From a virus, in the IMG/VR virus record IMGVR_UViG_3300005613_002208, positions 1-25,124 of that record: a stretch of 25,124 bases of DNA. One strand, 5' to 3'. The translations under genes and the position numbers were made by a program. Below the pieces are notes generated by a model. That model did no database searches. It was given only the letters and a program-made list of their open reading frames with translations, and was not told the origin of the DNA. Below, one piece after another: positions 7,725 to 8,957 of this stretch; within the stretch, counting starts at the first letter, position 1; each line of letters begins with the position of its first letter.

Positions 7725-8212
7725 CTTACAGTAATCTCCGTGACAAACTGCCCTGTTGCAGTCGTTCCAGCACCGCCTGCTGTAAGCGTCATGGAACCAT
7801 CGCTACCAATAGTACCAGCAAGACTTCCAGCGGTCCCACCAAGTTGTGTGGTGGTGTTTCCGTAGATGTTTGGTTGATCAATCTGGCCAGCACTGAGAGC
7901 AGTTTGAGTGGTTACGATTGCATCCCCTTGATTAAACGATTCACTGAACGTGAATGCATCACCAGCAGTTGTCTGTGTATATGTACCTGAACTCATCGTA
8001 GCAGCGGCAGTAGCACTTGCAGGAGCAGTAAGACCGCCAAGAGTTCCTGCTGTTATGTTGCTACCGCTCACAGAGTAGGATGAACCGATTCTGGTCGATT
8101 GAACAGCTGGACCTTCAACATTCAACTGGACACTAGATGAAATTTTATGAATCATATCGGCATTTGCAGGTGCCGCCATCAGAAACATAATGAGAGGTAA
8201 AAACCTTTTCAT
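7721..8212 (-). CDS. Exported glycine/threonine/alanine-rich protein
   Basis: A 163-residue protein with signal peptide MKRFLPLIMFLMAAPANA, then a low-complexity mature part with repeated GT/GG steps (GTLGGLTAPASATAAAT, LGGTAGSLAGTIGSDGSMTL) and FTFSESFNQGDA. The composition suggests a beta-rich, possibly adhesive or fibre-like protein. The ATG at 8212 is preferred over an in-frame ATG at 8224, because it puts the basic end at the front of the signal and gives a leader of about 19 bases from the late promoter at 8244-8237; the other would leave about 7 bases. It heads the three-gene minus-strand unit. Function unknown. Confidence 0.65.
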   Translation of the reverse strand: MKRFLPLIMFLMAAPANADMIHKISSSVQLNVEGPAVQSTRIGSSYSVSGSNITAGTLGGLTAPASATAAATMSSGTYTQTTAGDAFTFSESFNQGDAIVTTQTALSAGQIDQPNIYGNTTTQLGGTAGSLAGTIGSDGSMTLTAGGAGTTATGQFVTEITVR

Positions 8213-8236
8213 CTTTACACTCATTGGGTGCTCAGC

Positions 8237-8244
8237 TATTTATC
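8237..8244 (-). promoter_or_regulatory. T4-type late promoter GATAAATA (minus strand)
   Basis: Read on the minus strand, 8244-8237 is GATAAATA, the same octamer as at 4651 on the plus strand. Transcription should begin near 8231 and read the three exported-protein genes. Confidence 0.6.
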
Positions 8245-8248
8245 GAAT

Positions 8249-8365
8249 GTGGCCCTTGACAAGGTGATTAAATATGAGTATGATAACTCTGTCAGGGTTG
8301 ATGGGACATCTTTAAAGTCTTTAAGAGATCTTGACAATTTGGTAAAAATACATTATAATAAATAG
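8249..8365 (+). other. Possible small or remnant reading frame
   Basis: From GTG at 8249 a 38-codon frame runs to TAG at 8363, with residues VIKYEYDNSVRVDGTSLKSL followed by RDLDNLVKIHYNK. It looks protein-like and stays open upstream across the minus-strand promoter, so it may be the tail of a gene whose front was lost when the flanking genes moved in. No ribosome site is seen and the early promoter of the HNH gene lies inside it. It may equally be chance. Confidence 0.25.
8331..8359 (+). promoter_or_regulatory. Perfect sigma70-type early promoter
   Basis: TTGACA (8331-8336) and TATAAT (8354-8359) match the bacterial consensus exactly with a 17-base spacer. Transcription should start near 8366, inside the left arm of the inverted repeat ahead of the HNH gene, and could continue into the tRNA cluster. 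Confidence 0.85.
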
Positions 8366-8407
8366 ATATTACAAATAAAAAATATAAATAGTTTTGTAAT
8401 ATCTATT
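8361..8407 (+). promoter_or_regulatory. 15-bp perfect inverted repeat over the HNH translation start region
   Basis: AATAGATATTACAAA (8361-8375) is the exact reverse complement of 8393-8407, with a 17-base loop that contains a late promoter. The right arm ends 6 bases before the ATG at 8414, so the hairpin would cover the ribosome-binding area in transcripts that carry both arms. Confidence 0.8.
8383..8390 (+). promoter_or_regulatory. Consensus T4-type late promoter TATAAATA
   Basis: An exact TATAAATA lies in the loop of the inverted repeat. A late start near 8396 would give an 18-base leader lacking the left arm, so the hairpin could not form. Confidence 0.7.
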
Positions 8408-8413
8408 AATGGT

Positions 8414-8869
8414 ATGAAATGTTTATCCTGCGGTGTAGAGCATACTAATCCCAAGTTTTGTGGTAGAAGTTGTGCTGCCAAATGGACCAATAAACATTAT
8501 CCAAAAAAGAAAAAAACTAGAATAGATAAAAACTGCGAAATATGTGGTATATCTATCGATAGTAGAAGCACAAGATGTAGAAAATGTTGTAGTTTTACTG
8601 TAGATATGACGCTTAATGAAGCAATTTATGAGAAGCATCACAGGTCTTCAGCATATGCTCTTATTAGAACAAGAGCAAGGTCCATTGCTAAAAAACTGGG
8701 TCTTGACACCTGCTTCAAATGCGGTTATAATAAACATGTTGAAATTGCTCACATCAAGGGTATTTCAACTTTTGAAGGAGACACCTTAATAAGTGTTATA
8801 AATTCAAAAGAAAACCTAATGGCGTTATGTCCCAATTGTCATTGGGAATTTGATAATTTGGGCAAGTAG
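8414..8869 (+). CDS. HNH-type homing endonuclease with zinc-ribbon motifs
   Basis: A 151-residue protein. The N-terminal half has cysteine pairs typical of small zinc fingers: CLSCG and FCGRSC near residues 3-20, CEIC and CRKCC near 41-59. The C-terminal half has CFKCGYNKHVEIAHIKGIS, an Asn in NSKENLMALC, and CPNCHWEFDN, the arrangement of HNH nucleases in which paired CxxC motifs hold a zinc and the His-Asn-His set binds the catalytic metal. Such free-standing nucleases promote their own spread among phages. The last 10 bases of the gene, including the stop, are the first bases of tRNA-Arg. Expression seems controlled by the early/late promoter pair and hairpin just upstream. Confidence 0.85.
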   Translation: MKCLSCGVEHTNPKFCGRSCAAKWTNKHYPKKKKTRIDKNCEICGISIDSRSTRCRKCCSFTVDMTLNEAIYEKHHRSSAYALIRTRARSIAKKLGLDTCFKCGYNKHVEIAHIKGISTFEGDTLISVINSKENLMALCPNCHWEFDNLGK

Positions 8870-8933
8870 TTCAGTGGATTAGAATAGCGCACTTCTAATG
8901 CGTAGGTCGGGGGTTCGAATCCCTCCTTGCCCG
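8860..8933 (+). tRNA. tRNA-Arg (anticodon TCT)
   Basis: The acceptor arms GGGCAAG (8860-8866) and CTTGCCC (8926-8932) pair, with G as discriminator at 8933. The anticodon loop CTTCTAA gives TCT, and the T arm carries GGTTCGAATCC. The terminal CCA is not encoded. The first 10 bases overlap the end of the HNH gene. It would read AGA codons. Confidence 0.93.
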
Positions 8934-8957
8934 TTGTCATTTTTCCTCGTCATTCGT

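Follow-up and report, generated by a model that had tools for sequence, protein, structure and literature searches.

A putative promoter-in-hairpin switch ahead of a free-standing HNH nuclease gene in a T4-like cyanophage

Introduction

A late promoter combined with a hairpin at the gene start has been described for several phage nuclease genes, namely I-TevI, I-TevII, I-TevIII (HNH), segB, and mobE of phage Aeh1 (HNH; PMC2988022). Repression by a hairpin has also been described for soc, e, 39, 25, and 26 (PMC2988022), and T4 gene 49, which encodes a recombination nuclease, has an inhibitory hairpin of its own (PMC3014915). The late-promoter motif considered here is TATAAATA (PMC2984593). In the literature searched, we found no report of the arrangement in cyanophages.

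Here, we analyze a record of 25,124 bases from a virus of marine cyanobacteria (the window, that is, the whole stretch of DNA studied), in which an inverted repeat enclosing such a promoter precedes an HNH nuclease gene (Table 1). An earlier note on this DNA had proposed an early/late translational switch at this site and regarded it as new for an HNH or tRNA-linked nuclease. The second claim does not hold, because mobE and I-TevIII (HNH) and the tRNA-linked segB are already so arranged (PMC2988022). The observation itself is confirmed, and the switch mechanism is likely on the strength of the sequence.

Results

The setting is that of a T4-like cyanophage, because nrdA and nrdB match Synechococcus phages and the closest relative of the window, a 194-kb contig (G001; 97% identity across the window), encodes gp23, gp45 (4e-24), gp55 (4e-18), and gp33 (2e-4). 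The last three are late-transcription factors and are thus present in a near-identical phage. A divergent gene (phrog_564) lies upstream, followed by promoter-like sites at 8256 and 8331, the repeat, the HNH gene, and the tRNA genes; five further tRNA genes lie downstream of tRNA-Arg(TCT). Elsewhere in the window, a wcaG RNA motif (RF01761; 11194-11284) is found upstream of glycan genes.

Table 1. Positions of the features discussed (window coordinates).
Feature	Position	Strand	Remark
Window	25,124 bases		virus record
Sigma-70-like promoter, TTGACA-17-TATGAT (11/12)	8256..8284	+	predicted RNA start ~8291, complete hairpin
Perfect sigma-70 promoter, TTGACA-17-TATAAT	8331..8359	+	RNA would begin within left arm
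Left arm of 15-bp perfect inverted repeat	8361..8375	+	AATAGATATTACAAA
Loop of inverted repeat	8376-8392		17 nt
T4-type late promoter, TATAAATA	8383..8390	+	in 17-nt loop; expected RNA start ~8396
Right arm of inverted repeat	8393..8407	+	TTTGTAATATCTATT; covers -21 to -7 of HNH start codon
HNH nuclease gene, 151 aa	8414..8869	+	Pfam HNH_2 2e-6
Perfect sigma-70 promoter inside HNH gene	8703..8731	+	within LDTCxxCGYN codons; presumably for downstream tRNA genes
tRNA-Arg(TCT)	8859..8934	+	5' end overlaps last 11 nt of HNH gene

The HNH protein has zinc-finger-like cysteine pairs in its N-terminal part and the HNH domain in its C-terminal part. The match to Pfam HNH_2 is above the cut-off, and phrog_1271 matches with 4e-9; a search of solved structures with this protein gave no useful match. 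The gene adjoins tRNA-Arg(TCT), a likely target, in many relatives, and its spread is patchy, with few named phages carrying it. The longest run identical between the window and G001 is 755 nt (8194-8949, versus 97% overall), and it spans the control region, the HNH gene, and tRNA-Arg. Such a run is what recent homing or co-conversion would leave, but it is suggestive only.

The promoter inside the HNH gene has counterparts in other members of the family. TTGACA (TTGACT in L132), 17 nt, and TATAAT or TATGAT occur inside the LDTCxxCGYN codons of the window gene and of L002, L005-L008, L010-L012, L014, L016, L019, and L132. These carriers belong to the HNH clade that mostly adjoins tRNA-Arg(TCT); HNH relatives located elsewhere mostly have FTEC instead and are without the -35 box. 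It looks like a tRNA promoter embedded in the nuclease gene, which, if so, would favor retention of that gene.

The elements named in the earlier note are exactly as it claimed. The sigma-70 promoter (TTGACA at 8331, TATAAT ending at 8359) has a spacer of 17 bases, the late promoter is an exact TATAAATA within the loop, all 15 pairs of the repeat are perfect, and six bases lie between the right arm and the ATG at 8414. The window contains five perfect TTGACA-N15..19-TATAAT promoters, all on the + strand (0.08 expected), while TATAAATA alone is not rare (2 versus 1.1 expected). A dinucleotide Markov model predicts 0.007 perfect 15-bp pairs within 60 nt per window; one is seen, and a chance origin of the repeat was rejected. 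The hairpin region also folds better than its shuffles (z -4.1 and -5.0 in two scans). With the late promoter inside the repeat (8361-8407), late RNA would be without the left arm. No Shine–Dalgarno motif is visible before the HNH ATG or in the stem of the window, so that a hidden ribosome site can mean only the pairing of -7 to -21.

We favor, with fair but far from full confidence, a promoter-in-hairpin translational switch before a free-standing, probably homing, HNH nuclease inserted 5' of tRNA-Arg(TCT). Early in infection, RNA entering from upstream would fold the 15-bp repeat, and the folded repeat would pair the bases directly before the AUG, resulting in poor translation. Once the phage late sigma factor (gp55 with gp33 and gp45) takes over, transcription would begin in the right arm at ~8396; this late RNA would not carry the left arm, and the nuclease would be made. 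We infer the start sites, the translation block, its timing, and homing by the nuclease, whereas the sequence elements, their statistics, their conserved order, and the late-transcription genes are observed.

Which early RNA would be silenced depends on where it begins. Transcription start sites were placed by rule, and the predicted start of the 8331 promoter (~8365-8368) lies inside the left arm. The whole repeat has a predicted energy of -13.2 kcal/mol; RNA of the 8331 promoter retains 8-11 of the 15 pairs (-5.5 kcal/mol in isolation from 8366). Freeing -15 to +12 is predicted to cost 15.3 kcal/mol in upstream RNA from 8256, 6-11.5 kcal/mol in RNA from 8331, and 4.7-5.7 kcal/mol in late RNA. 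The right arm thus lies where opening is costly in upstream RNA (15.3 versus 4.7-5.7 kcal/mol), yet there is no Shine–Dalgarno motif there. Since the hairpin of the 8331 RNA is truncated and weak, strong silencing needs read-through or the 8256 promoter, and these calculations make read-through RNA or 8256 RNA the likelier silenced species.

Protein and alignment scans gave 292 HNH-family genes with 100 distinct upstream stretches. Most cyanophage-type relatives have the order tRNA or early promoter, left arm, TATAAATA, right arm, ATG. A significant hairpin (folding versus shuffles), with NATAAATA in the loop and closing beside the start codon, is present in 14 of 19 distinct relatives, counted as stretches in which NATAAATA precedes the start by 27-35 nt, the sister clade being left out. 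The arms differ among groups and pair within each (GGAACC/GGTTCC, GTGTTTTGAAAC/GTTTCAAAACAC, and TTCGAACTAA/TTAGTTCGAA). In an alignment of 20 relatives, 86.5% of cells are paired and the covariation score is 0.249, compared with shuffles at 0.121 +/- 0.023 and slid partners not exceeding 0.094, although the structure was read from the same 20 sequences and is thus somewhat favored. In G001, identical to the window here, 28 sites combine NATAAATA with an ATG, and the HNH gene is the sole one with z <= -3. A group I intron (Rfam RF00028) runs antisense across one HNH relative (L173:1356-2032, - strand).

The tree places the window as sister (98/80) to a clade (L098, L099, L100, L102, L103, L105, and L106; proteins 65-77% identical) in which the long hairpin is absent. 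The left arm is missing there, and the late promoter and the right half are kept. Because of this placement, the hairpin of the window reads as either a gain in its own line or a loss in that of its sister. The sister-clade HNH gene is placed 3' of tRNA-Arg(TCT) (checked in four), not 5', and offers a natural comparison for the switch. The subclade L008/L011/L019 has TATAAT in the loop and GGAGG in the right arm, with TTGACA (L011) or TTGACT (L008) at the foot of the left arm. Here, an early-class promoter would allow the same kind of escape.

We surveyed ten related-phage contigs (1.17 Mb), in which 179 sites combine NATAAATA with an ATG, for hairpins with z <= -2, at least eight enclosing pairs, and an arm no further than 8 nt from this ATG. 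Under these cut-offs, which were fixed after the data were seen, nucleases make up 16 of 21 distinct genes, compared with 5 of 30 random late-promoter genes without the arrangement (Fisher p 3e-5; 11 of 16 and p 7e-4 without this HNH family). At z <= -3, the fraction is 10/11. The 16 nucleases comprise this HNH family (5), other HNH, endonuclease-VII-like, two LAGLIDADG-like (labeled from the names of homologues), and GIY-YIG types; a seventeenth gene, L339:9780, GIY-YIG by eye only, was left out of the nuclease count. Endonuclease-VII-like genes need not be homing nucleases, because the product of T4 gene 49 is a recombination nuclease. Shuffled-letter control motifs were rejected as not clean and replaced by the 30 random genes; their best matches were mostly the same nuclease loci, reached via overlapping motifs. 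Nucleases also predominate among the other genes so arranged in a smaller locus set (for example, GIY-YIG-like L011:836-1453, z -6.5).

We next applied these cut-offs unchanged to the isolated Synechococcus phage S-SRM01. Five genes pass, four of them nucleases: gp207 and gp225 (annotated endonuclease VII), gp320 (a homing endonuclease between psbA parts), and gp152 (GIY-YIG by eye); the other is a baseplate gene. A variant is seen in this phage (NC_070963, ~162214-162247) before the homing endonuclease gp253, where a hairpin (AAGTATGGTTAGTAACCATACTT) directly follows TATAAATA and late initiation would trim the left arm. When T4 was scanned in the same way as a control, I-TevII (z -6.8) and gene e (z -4.2) ranked high, and 26/51 was found as well. 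The scan does not recover soc, whose arms are outside the scanned stretch, and the survey counts are therefore lower bounds.

The early/late logic of the earlier note is thus supported by placement that is conserved with changed arms, by compensatory changes, by the T4 control, and by gp55, gp45, and gp33; the role given to the 8331 RNA and the novelty are the parts that give way. A wider generalization, on which we are nearly evenly divided and do not quite commit ourselves, is that the cyanophage promoter-in-hairpin is a portable signature of selfish nucleases of any fold (HNH, GIY-YIG, LAGLIDADG-like, endonuclease-VII-like), arising over and over with new arms, a sigma-70 -10 box replacing the late promoter in one subclade. 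Its purpose would be to silence the nuclease on read-through RNA with the nuclease's own promoter active.

Discussion

The repeat could also be a DNA operator, in which a dimer, perhaps of the HNH protein, binds both arms and represses the late promoter. There is precedent in I-TevI, whose operator overlaps its own late promoter (PMC2988022). In the TATAAATA group, the sense RNA stem is no stronger than the antisense stem (p 0.90; G-U 3 versus A-C 7), so a role at the DNA level is possible. A G-U bias was rejected as proof of an RNA role, as it is absent from the TATAAATA group and seen only in L008/L011/L019. There, the stem contains GGAGG and gains ~8 kcal/mol in sense RNA through G-U pairs (n=3), which speaks against an operator. 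The arms of nearly all relatives outside the clade of the window keep a GAAC...GTTC core (AAC and GTT invariant) similar to the tRNA T-arm GGTTCGA, and the genes concerned adjoin tRNAs. However, the arms of the window share nothing with this core, and the sister clade is without the repeat. The hairpin position, moreover, follows the start codon, with an arm usually closing 0-7 nt from it, and the same placement is seen before nucleases of unrelated folds. We consider an operator unlikely on balance, and it may act jointly with an RNA hairpin. The T-arm-like GGTTC, a candidate for a homing-site-like sequence over the late promoter, occurs in the arms of most relatives and is absent from those of the window. 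Arms with GAAC...GGTTC(GA), near tRNA genes, are found for example in L019, L176, and L304 and may be a binding site in imitation of the target.

It is less probable still that the promoters alone matter, with an incidental repeat and purely transcriptional timing. The sister clade does keep a late promoter without the hairpin, and overlapping early and late promoters have been described in cyanophages (PMC2984593), but a perfect repeat so rarely expected per window and its equivalents with compensatory changes in relatives speak against this reading. A transcription terminator or RNA-processing site ahead of the tRNA operon would suit a hairpin between promoters and a tRNA cluster but is very improbable with 2 G-C pairs in 15, a 17-nt loop, no T-run on either side, and no match here in a terminator scan.

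Taken as a translational switch, the window alone adds a cyanophage gene to those under a known T4 mechanism, and its novelty is modest; that of the survey pattern is greater. If the pattern holds, unrelated selfish nucleases have repeatedly reached one regulatory solution in a distant T4-type branch with a different host. It would then give a signature by which homing nucleases can be recognized in sequence, and a handle on why their genes need early silence.

Among the known systems, I-TevI, I-TevII, and I-TevIII have, as predicted here, a late promoter within or adjacent to a hairpin by which the translation start is paired on upstream RNA, and late RNA without the left arm (PMC2988022, PMC3014915). 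I-TevIII is also HNH, and T4 I-TevII has TATAAATA in the loop, like the window. These three are intron genes of an E. coli phage with a clear Shine–Dalgarno motif in the stem, whereas the window gene is free-standing, belongs to a cyanophage, and has an AT-rich stem (2 G-C of 15) without this motif. The logic of early silence and late translation proposed here is also that of T4 e, soc, and 49 (PMC3014915), which serve the phage and are not selfish nucleases. The Aeromonas phage Aeh1 gene mobE (Gibb and Edgell 2007, 2009, as cited in PMC2988022) is likewise a free-standing HNH gene with a late promoter and a hairpin that sequesters the ribosome-binding site; it is embedded in a ribonucleotide reductase gene, whereas the window gene lies at tRNA-Arg, and the likeness noted here is one of arrangement. 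T4 segB lies directly 5' of tRNA-Arg(TCT), like the window gene, and has a late promoter and a hairpin at its start. It is GIY-YIG, not HNH, and its CATAAATA is at the foot of a tighter hairpin, not in a 17-nt loop. T4 segB and the HNH gene of the window, although unrelated, thus adjoin the same tRNA gene and would share one control logic.
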